Shown here: piece by piece, positions 4,688-59,028 of the stretch
Layout of the letters: each line of letters begins with the position of its first letter
How positions within the stretch are numbered: the stretch's first letter is position 1
Source of the DNA: Deltaproteobacteria bacterium
GTDB taxonomy: Bacteria > Myxococcota > Myxococcia > Myxococcales > JAHFDP01
NCBI GenBank assembly: GCA_023248955.1
Contig: JAHFDP010000009.1
Coordinates: 1 to 59,028, forward strand
DNA length: 59,028 nucleotides
Reading direction: 5' to 3'
Position numbers and translations under genes: made by a program
The notes under the pieces: generated by a model
The model's database searches: none
What the model saw: only the letters and a program-made list of their open reading frames with translations
Told to the model about the DNA's origin: nothing

Positions 4688-4955
4688 GCGCACGTTTTTC
4701 GGATCGCGGAAGTTGTTTGATGGCGTATTCGCGCCGCAGTGCCGCGCCCAGGTCGAGCGGTCCCTCGGTGAGCAAGAGACGTAGCGGTCCGCGGCCGCGC
4801 GTGTAGCGGGCGCCCGATCCGTTGCGATGCTGCGCCAGGCGCAAAGCCACGTCCCGCGCGATGCCGGTGTAGAGCGTGCCGTCGCCGCAGCGCAAGATGT
4901 ACACGTAATACATTCGATCTGTTTTGTATTTTCGATGCTTGCGCCGTGCCTTCAC
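4506..4955 (-). CDS. GIY-YIG nuclease superfamily protein
   Basis: The GIY-YIG core is clear: MYYVYILRCGDGTLYTGIA, then RLAQHRNGSGARYTRGRGP and a REYAIKQLPRSEK segment, as in short YhbQ-type proteins. This family is a single-domain nuclease fold linked to DNA repair, though cellular roles are mostly unproven. The start was set at GTG 4955 because it overlaps the TGA of the upstream gene (GTGA), implying translational coupling. ATG at 4913 would begin exactly at the domain. Beyond about residue 90 the Ala/Pro/Arg-rich tail lies antisense to the 512-residue gene and has no domain, so the real functional part is the first 90 residues. Confidence 0.8.
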   Translation of the reverse strand: MKARRKHRKYKTDRMYYVYILRCGDGTLYTGIARDVALRLAQHRNGSGARYTRGRGPLRLLLTEGPLDLGAALRREYAIKQLPRSEKRALTAPRLPRAPRPSYAAPLPAGARLLRRPTNGAARRAATGSNAAPARNERSGHSRRAPARA

Positions 4956-5188
4956 CGCTTGAGCTCAATCGCGATTTCCACTTCGTCGTCGCTCGGAGCG
5001 CCTCGGTTTTGGACGTGCGCGGTGAACGTCCCGCTTTCGCGCAGCGTTTGAAAGATCGCTTTCATCACAGCGGGCTTGGTGCGCTCCCAGTGGCGCAGCC
5101 AGACATGGCCGTCGTCGTCGCTGTCTTCGTCGTCGGCGAATTCCGCGGCGAGATGCAACCGAATCACGAACTCCTTTTCTTCCCGCAC
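4952..5188 (-). CDS. Small acidic hypothetical protein between SUI1-like and GIY-YIG genes
   Basis: A 78-residue protein starts at GTG 5188 with an AAGGGG site in the tail of the upstream gene and ends inside the GTGA overlap with the GIY-YIG gene. It is acidic, with a DDEDSDDDGH patch near residue 20, WLRHWERTKPAV in the middle, and an alternating polar/hydrophobic end (DDEVEIAIELKR). The pattern looks like a small alpha/beta fold. No family recognised. Tight packing on both sides is the main evidence that it is a real gene. Confidence 0.65.
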   Translation of the reverse strand: MREEKEFVIRLHLAAEFADDEDSDDDGHVWLRHWERTKPAVMKAIFQTLRESGTFTAHVQNRGAPSDDEVEIAIELKR

Positions 5189-5191
5189 GCG

Positions 5192-5545
5192 TTACCCCTT
5201 CACCAGAAATCCCATCGACGTGAGCAGTGGGCGCAGCTTGTCGCGAAAATCGCCTTGCAACTCGACGCATCCGTCGCCCGCCGTGCCACCGGTGCCGCAC
5301 CGGCGCTTGAGCTGGCTGGCGAGATCGCGCAGATAGTCGGCGTGGCGTGGGAGTCCGTCGAGCACCGTCACCGTTTTTCCGCCGCGGCCTTTTTTCTCCA
5401 TGCGCAGAATCACGGTTTGCCGTTTTCCAAACGGCTTTGATTCGGGAGCAGGGCAGGTGCAGTTTCGCGTCAGCTCTTTGCAGCGCGCGCACTTCTGCAT
5501 CAGCGCGGGATCGGTCGAGTAAACGAGCTTCCCATCCGTGGACAT
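5192..5545 (-). CDS. yciH: SUI1/eIF1-like translation factor (YciH family)
   Basis: The C-terminal 80 residues match the eIF1/SUI1 fold: QTVILRMEKKGRGGKTVTVL, then a CGTGGTAGDGCVELQGDF segment and DKLRPLLTSMGF, as in bacterial YciH. A short Cys-containing N-terminus (KCARCKELTRNCTC) may bind zinc and precedes the domain, as in other bacterial members. SUI1-type proteins influence start-codon fidelity; the physiological role of YciH is not settled. ATG 5545 was chosen because it gives the usual length of about 117 residues; GTG further upstream is possible. It heads the cluster with the 78-residue protein and the GIY-YIG gene. Confidence 0.85.
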   Translation of the reverse strand: MSTDGKLVYSTDPALMQKCARCKELTRNCTCPAPESKPFGKRQTVILRMEKKGRGGKTVTVLDGLPRHADYLRDLASQLKRRCGTGGTAGDGCVELQGDFRDKLRPLLTSMGFLVKG

Positions 5546-5626
5546 CGGATGAGCATCCCCCAAAAAACAGAGCGCCGCCACTTCGCAAGCTGGCGGCCCT
5601 CTGTATTACGATGTAAATCCATTGTA

Positions 5627-5815
5627 TTACTTCGTCTCTTTTGCCGCGCCGGACTGTTCGATCGCTTGGCCGTTCTTTTCCGACTTCTCGCCGCGCTTCT
5701 CTTTGCGTTCGCCACGCCGCTCTTTGCGCTCGCCACGCTTTTCTTGAGCTTCGCCAGCGCGTGCGGTGGAAGGAATCGCGCTGAGGAGAAGGCCGGCCGC
5801 GACGGTGCCGATCAT
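5627..5815 (-). CDS. Small secreted protein with charged KRGE-type repeats
   Basis: A short hydrophobic signal (AAGLLLSAIPSTARA) is followed by about 40 residues almost entirely Lys, Arg, Glu and Gly, in imperfect KRGERKE repeats. The mature product would be a disordered, highly charged exported peptide. No family recognised. The Shine-Dalgarno (AAGGAG) lies 18 bases before ATG 5815 but only six bases before an in-frame ATA at 5827, which would add I/M-N-R-F, so the true start may be non-canonical. A GGCGGG/CCCGCC hairpin (5846-5860) sits just upstream of the ribosome site. Confidence 0.6.
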   Translation of the reverse strand: MIGTVAAGLLLSAIPSTARAGEAQEKRGERKERRGERKEKRGEKSEKNGQAIEQSGAAKETK

Positions 5816-5908
5816 GAACCGATTTATTTTTGTCTCCTTAGTTAAGGCGGGAATCCCGCCATCCGTTCTGGATTAAAAGACGCTAGGCGCAGCGGATTTA
5901 TTCAGGCG

Positions 5909-6085
5909 CTAGGTCCAGCGAAAGATCCTCATGGCCAGCGCGAAACATCCTGCGCCCCACACCGCTAGAACCGCACCCTGCGGTGCGAGCGTGAAGATCG
6001 AAGCACCGTCGATCATCACCGAGCGCAGACCATCGTTGAGCGCGGTGAGCGGTAAGAGCTTGAGCACCGGTGTCTTACATGCGTG
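5909..6085 (-). pseudogene. C-terminal remnant of an ABC-2 type transporter permease
   Basis: The minus strand holds 58 open codons bounded by stop codons. The peptide LKLLPLTALNDGLRSVMIDG followed by a hydrophobic helix and AMRIFRW is the typical C-terminal end of ABC-2 family permeases (last helix, aromatic-basic tail). The rest of the permease and any ATPase are absent, and the fragment runs into the start of the NADH dehydrogenase gene. It is most simply read as debris left by a deletion or insertion junction near 6085. Confidence 0.6.
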
Positions 6086-6099
6086 TTACATTGTGATCG

Positions 6100-7355
6100 G
6101 TGGGGACTTCGGGAAAAACGCCGCACGTGGTGATTCTCGGAGGAGGATTCGGCGGTCTAGCGGCCGCTCGCGCGCTTAGTCGCGCACCGGTCCGCCTCAC
6201 GCTGATCGATCGCAAGAACCATCACCTCTTTCAGCCGCTCCTCTACCAGGTGGCGGCGGCCGCGCTCAATCCCAGCGACATCGCCACGCCGATTCGGCGC
6301 ATCTTGCGGCGGCAGAAAAATGTCACCGTCATTCTCGACAAGGCCATTGCGATCGATGTCGCGCAGAAGCGCGTGTGCTTGGCTGACGGCACCATCGACT
6401 ACGATTTTCTGATCGTCGCTACCGGCGCCACGCACGCCTACTTCGGACATCCCGAATGGGCGCGCGCTGCGCCGGGCCTCAAGACCATCGAGGACGCGTT
6501 GGAGATTCGACGTCGGCTGCTGTCGGCCTACGAAGCGGCCGAGCGCGAAACGGATCTCGAGCGGCAGCGTGCTTGGATGACCTTTGCCATCGTGGGCGCG
6601 GGGCCGACGGGCGTTGAATTGGCCGGCGCGCTGGCGGAGATTTCGCGGCAAGTGTTGGCGCGCGACTTTCGGCGCATCGACCCGCGGGCCGCGCGCATTG
6701 TGCTGGTGGAAGCGGGCCCGCGTGTGCTGCCGACATTCGCGCCGGATCTTTCGCAACGCGCCGCGGATCAACTTCGTCGGCTCGGCGTGGAAGTGCGCAT
6801 GGGCACCGCGGTGACCACCATCGATGAGCACGGGCTCGCGCTTGGCGATGAGCGCATCGAAGCGAAAACGGTGCTCTGGGCCGCGGGTGTGGCGGCTTCG
6901 CCAATCGCGCAATCGCTCGGTGTGCCGCTCGATCGTGCGGGACGTGTTCGCGTGGAGCCAACGCTCGCGGTTCCGGGAGCGCCGGATGTGTATGTCATCG
7001 GAGACTTGGCCGCGGTGTCGCAAGCCGCGGGGCAAGTTCCAGGCGTGGCGCAGGGCGCTATTCAAGGTGGTCGGCACGCGGCAAAAAATATTCTCAATAC
7101 CTTGGTAGGTAGACCGCGGGTCGCCTTTTGCTACCGCGATCTGGGGTCGCTCGCCACGATTGGCCGAGCGGCGGCGGTGGCCCAATTTTCTCGTGTTCAC
7201 CTGTCCGGGTTCATCGCCTGGTTGGCGTGGCTCTTCATTCACCTCATGCTCCTAATCGGTTTTCGCAACCGCTTCCTGGTGCTCACCGAATGGGCCTGGA
7301 CCTACTTCACGCGCGATCACGGTGCGCGGCTCATCACCGGCAGCGAGCGAGAATC

Positions 7356-57671: not shown

Positions 57672-57701
57672 TTGTACGTAAAAACGGAACAGTTCTATTC
57701 T
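57672..57701 (+). promoter_or_regulatory. Candidate promoter of the CYGxPC lipoprotein/MNIO pair
   Basis: TTGTAC (57672-57677), 18-base spacer, TATTCT (57696-57701), in an AT-rich patch that stands out from its surroundings, 72 bases before the ATG at 57774. The fit is moderate. No metal-regulator operator could be recognised. Confidence 0.35.
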
Positions 57702-57773
57702 GATCATACCAATTCTCTTCGATAGTCGTCGGGCCTAGGGTTTGTCGTGCAAGCCCACCCGAAGGAGAGAAAA

Positions 57774-58370
57774 ATGAAAAACGTGTTGACGAAGACGACC
57801 GGAGGTCTGGCCCTCATGCTTGGGCTTCACACTGGATGCGGCGCTGCTCCGAAATCCGTGGCGCCGATCGATTCACCACTCCCTCCGGGACCGTCGCCGG
57901 AGCAGCCAGCGAACGATGCGACCCAGGTCACGGATTCGATTCAGCAGAGCCTCGCACGTCTGGACAAATTGGAGATCTTCCAGACTGACAGTTTGGTGAG
58001 CAAGCTGCCGGCGGAGGCCTTTTCTTGCTACGGGAGCCCATGTCCCGGCGGGAAGTGGGAGAAACCGTTTCTGGAGGAGCGCGCGCGCCAAGCACCCCGG
58101 CTGGCCAGACTGGCCGATATCGCAGAAGTGGTCAGCCGCGATACATCTCTCACTCCGCGCGATCCGAATGAGGCAGCGTCGGCACTTGCCGCCTTGAATG
58201 CGCTCGAAGTCGTGCACGTCGAATTTCTCGTCGAGGCCCAGCCTAAGAACAACCCCGAGTGTTACGGCCTGCCGTGCACGGCGGACAAGGCCGACGCCGA
58301 CCGCGCAACCGGTCTGCACGTGGCGCAAGCACTGGCCATCGCCGACGTGGCCAAACGTACGGGGTTGTAA
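57774..58370 (+). CDS. Exported duplicated protein with two CYGxPC motifs, likely substrate of the adjacent MNIO enzyme
   Basis: A 198-residue protein with ATG 57774 after GGAG. The signal region (GGLALMLGLHTGC) looks like a lipoprotein start, with Cys22 as the possible lipidation site, though His at -3 is unusual. The mature part is an internal duplication: residues ~58-120 and ~136-198 align with LARLDKLE/LAALNALE, CYGSPC (85-90)/CYGLPC (163-168), and ADIAEVV/ADVAKRT. Apart from Cys22 there are no other Cys. Directly coupled to a DUF692 enzyme (TAATG), it is a candidate ribosomally made, post-translationally modified protein whose Cys pairs are altered. Not a family I recognise. Confidence 0.75.
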   Translation: MKNVLTKTTGGLALMLGLHTGCGAAPKSVAPIDSPLPPGPSPEQPANDATQVTDSIQQSLARLDKLEIFQTDSLVSKLPAEAFSCYGSPCPGGKWEKPFLEERARQAPRLARLADIAEVVSRDTSLTPRDPNEAASALAALNALEVVHVEFLVEAQPKNNPECYGLPCTADKADADRATGLHVAQALAIADVAKRTGL

Positions 58371-59028
58371 TGAGCATCGCGTTTCCGTCCCTGCCGCGTC
58401 GCGGCCTCGGCGTTGGTCTCGACCTTCCGTGGGATGGGACCACCGGCTTTGGCCATCACGCACATGACGGGGACGTTCTCGCCGCGCCCGTCCGTAAATT
58501 CCTACGGACGAGCGCGGCGCGTTGGTCGCACGCTTTCTTCTCGTGGCAACCGCGCGATCGCGCCGCGCCACTTCTCGAGGATTATGCCGCCGCGTGGGAC
58601 GGTCTCCGTGCAGCGCTTCCTCCACAGTTGCCGCGCGCACTCCACCACACTGCGCTCAACCTCGGATCGCTTGGGCCGTACCAGCGCGACGAGCTCTTCT
58701 CGTTCACCAACGCGCTCTGCGATCGCTACGGTCTGTGTTGGATCAACGAAGACGTCGGACTCTGGTCGCTGGCGGGACGACCGCTGCCGTATCCACTTCC
58801 TCCGTTGCTAACCGACGAAGGTCTCGCGGCCACGATTGCCAACGTGCGCGAGTGCCAGGCCGCGCTTTCGGTTCCGCTGGTGCTCGAATTTCCCGGATTT
58901 GCACGCGGCGTGAGCGTCGTCCTCGGCGAACTTCCCGCCTACGATTTTTTCCGCGTGCTCGCCGAGGAGACCGCTGCGCCGGTGACGCTCGACATCGGGC
59001 ATCTCTTGAGCTGGCAGTGGTGGCGTGG
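58370..59028 (+). CDS. DUF692 / multinuclear non-heme iron oxidase (MNIO), 3' end beyond window
   Basis: The ATG at 58370 shares one base with the upstream stop (TAATG). About 219 residues are visible. Family marks: GLGVGLDLPW at the start, HHTALNLGSLGPY (His92/93), INEDVGLW (Glu127, Asp128) where canonical members have SDHLCW or SEHLSW, LPYPLPPLLTDEGL, LVLEFPGF (Glu173) in place of LLLENP, and LDIGH (Asp208, His211). These fit the iron-ligand positions of the MbnB/TglH superfamily, but the second strand is diverged. Characterised members modify Cys residues of peptides with O2. Substrate inferred from coupling: the CYGxPC protein. Any partner (MbnC/TglI-type) would lie beyond the edge. Confidence 0.82.
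   Translation, partial: MSIAFPSLPRRGLGVGLDLPWDGTTGFGHHAHDGDVLAAPVRKFLRTSAARWSHAFFSWQPRDRAAPLLEDYAAAWDGLRAALPPQLPRALHHTALNLGSLGPYQRDELFSFTNALCDRYGLCWINEDVGLWSLAGRPLPYPLPPLLTDEGLAATIANVRECQAALSVPLVLEFPGFARGVSVVLGELPAYDFFRVLAEETAAPVTLDIGHLLSWQWWR

Follow-up and report, generated by a model that had tools for sequence, protein, structure and literature searches.

The window, by which we mean the whole stretch of DNA analysed here, comprises bases 1-59028 of a 77,792-base contig (G000:C34) from a Myxococcota genome that is its family's sole member in the genome set compared. At its right-hand end lie two genes on the forward strand: gene A (57774..58370), which encodes a predicted lipoprotein of 198 amino acids with two CYGxPC repeats and is a candidate MNIO substrate, and gene B (58370..59028), the first 219 codons of an MNIO (PF05114) recognized by Pfam and by full-length orthologues. 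Gene A runs from an ATG at 57774 to a TAA at 58370, and its stop shares one base with the ATG of gene B (TAATG), which sets the start of gene B at 58370. These ORF coordinates confirm the 198-residue, two-motif protein and its overlap with the enzyme start, as described in an earlier sequence-only reading of the same DNA. Gene B is cut by a run of exactly 100 N from window position 59029 (G000:C34:59029-59128), the customary sign of a gap of unknown length, which conceals about 100 residues as estimated from a 319-aa orthologue. Since the window ends at this scaffold gap and the contig goes on, the rightward extension suggested in that reading was possible; it crossed the gap and found a partner-like gene after gene B, here gene C (contig 59129-59761, forward strand, outside the window), followed by a LysR gene on the opposite strand (contig 59794-60666).

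Gene A is defined by its open reading frame, its motifs and two orthologues (L011 and L012, see below). It encodes five cysteines, namely Cys22 in LHTGC and one pair each in CYGSPC and CYGLPC. The protein had been described as exported, for which predicted lipoprotein is the better term: LHTGC (57825..57839, forward strand) is by its sequence a lipobox with Cys22 as the predicted lipidation site, and the Gly-Cys is invariant in both close orthologues, the versions of the box being LHTGC, LSAGC and LSGC on inspection of the alignment. In repeat 1 (CYGSPC, residues 85-90; 58026..58043, forward strand), Cys, Tyr, Gly, Pro and Cys are invariant across the three orthologues, as are Cys, Tyr, Leu, Pro and Cys in repeat 2 (CYGLPC, residues 163-168; 58260..58277, forward strand). 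The Tyr following the first motif Cys is thus found in all six motifs of the three proteins, and the true consensus of the family is CY[GN]xPC; in this form the originally proposed CYGxPC motif holds for the three orthologues, whereas a fourth locus has a different Cys arrangement. Furthermore, the two halves of gene A are homologous: aligned locally, they score 64-79 in the three orthologues, where shuffled sequences average 22-23 (0/500 shuffles). The best of five AlphaFold2 models predicts a core (pLDDT at least 90 over 118 residues) built from two helix-strand-loop-helix units, in which each CYxxPC motif sits in the loop that joins the strand to the long helix; this confident core belongs to the best model only, the other four being poor, so the fold is to be taken with care. 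A PDB fold search with gene A returned no match. PADLOC and PHROGs yielded no matches.

The proposal that the neighbouring enzyme is of the DUF692/MNIO kind is well founded, as gene B matches PF05114 (MbnB_TglH_ChrH) with 32.7 bits despite its truncation (curated cut-off 25), and the full-length orthologues L011 and L012 reach 61.8 and 58.7 bits. The NCBIfam equivalogs BufB and ApyH are matched by gene B only far below their cut-offs, and the NCBIfam ChrH profile gave no match to the L011 or L048 enzyme at E 0.01. In an MNIO tree in which the tool flagged long branches elsewhere, four enzymes (gene B and the three relatives described below) form one clade (100/99) within an Asp-type branch (100/99). 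A new subfamily, as had been suggested, is therefore upheld by a clade of its own in the DUF692/MNIO tree, outside the named equivalog families.

To place the iron site, gene B and its orthologues were aligned with 51 other Myxococcota MNIOs, the BufB of the same genome, a TglH fragment and a 3BWW fragment; the last four ligands lie behind the gap in the window and were read from the orthologues. The iron ligands of TglH are His71, His107, Glu151, Asp184, Asn187, His216, Asp229, His231 and Glu258 (PMC10880893). Seven of these are identical in the gene B clade, and the two replacements, H107 to Asp and N187 to His, are both to ligating residues, giving His91, Asp127, Glu172, Asp207, His210, His241, Asp254, His256 and Glu284 in the L011 enzyme. 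The same replacements occur in a large group of fused 550-720-aa Myxococcaceae MNIOs, and in others, and are thus not peculiar to this system; the signature of the gene B clade within the Asp-type branch is NED plus LE[FL]PGF. The segments INEDVGLW and LVLEFP, earlier taken as departures from the usual enzyme, are present as stated but are not unique, since a large myxobacterial branch has the Asp/His pair, and a plasmid MNIO of Streptomyces next to a YcaO gene has both ED...W and EFP. This plasmid of Streptomyces europaeiscabiei (NZ_CP109155.1; L077 3510-7919) encodes a 533-aa MNIO with ED, EFP and DIGH features, whose neighbours in an uncharacterised cluster are YcaO, MBL-fold, acyl-protein synthase and acyl-CoA reductase genes. 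The fused Myxococcaceae enzymes share the Asp and His at the iron site and fall with the gene B clade into one larger clade (100/99), but they retain LENP and ND, and no Cys lipoprotein adjoins them in the loci inspected. In the window's order they are near-universal (L018-L045 and similar loci, about 75 genomes) and adjoin a uridine kinase gene in four of five loci inspected, with no precursor gene in sight.

Searching with gene B returned two close loci among the matches listed, one in the Myxococcales MAG palsa_1104 (L011) and one in an Archangium MAG (L012, the same locus as G106:C379). At both, gene A lies directly upstream of the MNIO and a partner-like gene C follows, in the order A-B-C. 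The L011 gene A product has 182 aa with CYGVPC and CYNLPC, and that of L012 carries CYGVPC, CYNLPC and an additional CNSGHC. The L011 enzyme is 74% identical to that of the window and 65% identical to that of L012, and the window's gene A product shares 50% identity with that of L011 and 36% with that of L012. The spacing between A and B varies from a 1-nt overlap (window) through abutting genes (L011) and a 6-nt gap (L048) to about 0.1 kb (L012). An enzyme profile run over 195 Myxococcota genomes found one more high scorer, G183 (E 6.8e-87), from the same phylum and another order. At this fourth locus, a gene for a Cys-bearing lipoprotein-like product (CDESSC, CDEIC, CPSCY) lies just upstream of the MNIO, and gene C comes after. 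Enzyme matches with E < 1e-80 occur in 3/195 Myxococcota genomes, all directly 3' of such a Cys-bearing lipoprotein-like gene. The fourth-locus lipoprotein resembles A in layout, and its scores are at most suggestive of homology (out of 500 shuffles, 3 score as high against L011, 37 against the window and 66 against L012; hhalign E 0.084); it is therefore counted as a Cys lipoprotein in the same position and not as a proven homologue.

Rather than occurring mostly away from DUF692 genes, the CYGxPC proteins found, three in number, all adjoin this MNIO, and no gene A without a neighbouring MNIO was found among the 195 Myxococcota genomes, although the cases are few (n=3). No further genome was matched by a gene A profile among 147 genomes of the class, or by a single-repeat profile among the 195 genomes of the phylum. 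A pattern scan for gene A alone across 84,980 genomes gave no relative among the matches listed, and since the gene B scan did give relatives, the enzyme is the better bait; beyond Myxococcota, coverage consists of these two genome scans and plasmids. A Fibrobacter match (L013) was dropped because its frame was not sensible, and weak gene A matches in relatives (E about 0.002-0.006) were taken as chance. The flanking genes differ at each locus (a pseudouridine synthase in the window; L011, L012 and L048 by inspection) while A-B-C stays constant. The A-B pair is not chance, being conserved in three genomes across enzyme identities of 65-74% and gene A identities of 36-50%. The pairing of a dedicated Cys-motif envelope protein with an MNIO, as first proposed from the window, hence recurs in three genomes.

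Gene C lies 3' of gene B in 4/4 loci, and in L012 the two form one reading frame. It has no Pfam family match, hence no DUF2063 match, and comparisons by profile and by structure linked it to none of the DUF2063, TglI and RRE proteins. PDB fold and sequence searches were likewise without a match, with a poor query model (pLDDT 65). Homology to the fused C-termini of Myxococcaceae MNIOs was not demonstrated (P 0.004, probability 8%), and comparison gave no support for homology to BufC or to the Streptomyces MNIO C-terminus. Precursors with signal peptides are known to pair with DUF2063 (PME-type 1) partners (PMC12452194), so this system would be an exception to that pairing if C is the partner.

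The LysR gene scores over cut-off for both HTH_1 and LysR_substrate. Recurrent copies point to a putative regulatory site of 15 bases, TTCTGATCATACCAA (57698..57712, forward strand), 76 nt before the start of gene A. When at most two mismatches are allowed, three copies occur in the 3.83-Mb genome, one upstream of gene A, one upstream of LysR (TTCTGATCATTCCGA, two mismatches, 37 nt upstream of the gene) and one elsewhere; this is a fairer test than a degenerate-pattern search, whose pattern was built from the letters of these very sites. In the genome of L012, the best copy has one mismatch and lies about 73 nt before the gene A orthologue. The LysR gene of G183 is 48-49% identical to that of the window and lies upstream of the cassette in the opposite direction. 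The simplest reading of these sites is that LysR would control its own gene and the cassette. MNIO and LysR were not found named together in the literature searched. LysR proteins 46-47% identical to the cassette LysR are also encoded in G107 and G108 (L083, L084), two genomes in which no CYGxPC protein was found; the LysR family thus extends beyond the system.

MNIO oxidative chemistry is unpredictable, and MNIO substrates are hard to find. The A-B-C gene system is very probably real, and we think it fairly probable that it forms a self-contained maturation cassette, in which B, aided by C, would oxidise A at its CYxxPC loops. Protein A would be made in the cytosol, where B, with C as a substrate-binding partner, would oxidise the two exposed loops before export. 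After export, A would receive a lipid at Cys22 and so be anchored in the envelope, the whole cassette probably standing under the nearby LysR protein. By analogy with bufferins, our guess is that the altered loops might bind metal or do redox work there. We infer A as the substrate, C as the partner, the loops as the site, and the final role. The cassette is supported by the tight A-B pair in all loci, by C following in 4/4, and by iron ligands that are kept or swapped for metal ligands; moreover, there are precedents for the precursor-MNIO-partner order and for lipidated MNIO substrates (PMC12452194, PMC12636315). Weighing against it, A is predicted to be folded, unlike most short MNIO substrates, although large protein substrates are known (PMC12636315); sure members number three; gene C has no detectable DUF2063, RRE or PDB partner relation; and a gene of this type is missing beside many myxobacterial MNIOs of the same wider branch.

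At the iron site, the likeness is to PbsC, which hydroxylates Phe in a route to biphenomycin-like ortho-Tyr peptides (PMC12257519). Its ligands, from an AlphaFold 3 prediction, are His97, Asp133, Glu178, Asp213, His216, His247, Asp260, His262 and Glu290 (PMC12257519). Compared through these published predicted positions, the L011 enzyme has the same nine ligand residues with identical spacing (36-45-35-3-31-13-2-28), whereas the intervals in TglH differ. The cassette departs from PbsC/PbsD in its substrate candidate, a lipoprotein, and inspection of the ORFs around L011, L014 and L048 revealed no FHAFRF precursor, arginase or B12 radical-SAM gene. The Cys chemistry favoured by the sequence-only reading is thereby weakened, as MNIOs are not solely Cys enzymes and the ligand set matches that predicted for Phe-hydroxylating PbsC and not those of TglH, MbnB or HvfB. 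The Cys-binding site of the known Cys enzymes appears altered here just as it is in an aromatic hydroxylase, which removes the ground for assuming Cys chemistry, and the PbsC-like iron site makes the loop Tyr nearly as likely a target as Cys. If the loops are modified, a Cys change would come a little short of an even chance, and oxygen insertion at the loop Tyr would be a tentative prospect; a single PbsC case does not prove a rule linking ligands to reaction. It is an unlikely possibility that a PbsC-type MNIO oxidises the loop Tyr, or cross-links Cys and Tyr, in the two CYxxPC loops of a folded lipoprotein to yield a genetically encoded, catechol-like or Cys-Tyr cofactor at the envelope, an MNIO product not found in the literature surveyed.

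A somewhat doubtful alternative is a bufferin/captophorin-like route, whereby B would make thiooxazole or oxazolone-thioamide from the motif Cys (-4 Da per Cys) and the lipoprotein would sequester copper at the membrane; this comes near to what the sequence-only reading proposed. In its favour, the window and L011 versions of A have no Cys outside the lipobox and the two motifs, Cys is the target in most known MNIO substrates (PMC12452194), and lipidated EGKCG substrates exist (PMC12636315). Like the bufferin/captophorin systems (BufA-BufB-BufC, HvfABC), the locus combines a signal-bearing Cys protein, an MNIO and a following partner gene, and some Buf2 precursors are predicted lipoproteins (PMC12452194). 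However, an orthologue of B scores 50.3 bits against the BufB profile (cut-off 310), the cassette enzyme is separate in the tree and has other iron-ligand residues, and the cassette has no DUF2063 partner by Pfam match, no bufferin domain and no Lys-Cys or Cys-Lys motif. In MbnB, moreover, the substrate Cys thiolate is bound by an iron with two His ligands (PMC13419390); the cassette enzyme has Asp as the second of these, in line with the prediction for PbsC.

It is improbable that A is not a substrate at all, its CYxxPC loops forming ordinary structural disulphides or serving, unmodified, as metal or redox sites while B acts on another protein or molecule. The confident predicted core, with the motif loops modelled between strand and long helix, would suit this alternative, as would the related MNIOs that have no visible precursor gene adjoining; on the other hand, A and B strictly co-occur and are adjacent, and no other precursor-like gene lies between C and LysR in L014. 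That A and B are neighbours by accident of genome order is very improbable and largely refuted by the four loci, since A-B-C stay together while the flanks differ at every one, even though the genomes are few and related MAGs could share gene order by descent.

The maturation cassette can also be set beside the DAG-RiPPs (DybA/DybH, NedABC; PMC12636315), where an MNIO lies beside a lipoprotein-type precursor and the subfamily takes protein-sized substrates. In contrast to these, gene A is without the C-terminal CPxCxMG, EGKCG or CxxxxC motif family, the CPACGMG-like (ChrH) motif is absent from it, and the cassette enzyme is not ChrH-like. Laboratory work has produced lipidated MNIO products and substrates of more than 30 kDa (PMC12636315), so the lipidation and size of A are no obstacle. 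Precursor, MNIO and partner are already known as a kind of system; the main texts of the literature surveyed gave no account of this precursor family, of its two-repeat architecture or of its association with a PbsC-like site, a prior listing under another name is possible, and the MNIO landscape paper leaves many small precursor groups unclassified. The cassette offers a small, tight and testable set of candidate substrate, enzyme and putative partner, in which the candidate substrate is a predicted folded lipoprotein. It also raises a family-wide question, whether MNIOs that do not act on Cys are marked by an Asp where site 1 otherwise has its second His; if that mark holds, the MNIO reaction type could be forecast from sequence.

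The genome of the window also carries a separate, canonical BufA2 bufferin cluster on contig C37 (L015, G000:C37:48000-60000, 4810-6709), in which BufB (359 bits) and BufA2 score over their cut-offs and a BufC/HvfC-like gene scores below. Its gene order is B-C-A, against a bufABC order termed strictly conserved (PMC12452194), and a sigma-factor-like gene comes after. Downstream of the cassette itself, inspection shows a gene for a large protein with RCC1-like repeats (CAVVNG..WCWG; L014 3838-6456) and an alanine racemase-like gene (L014 7124-8254).
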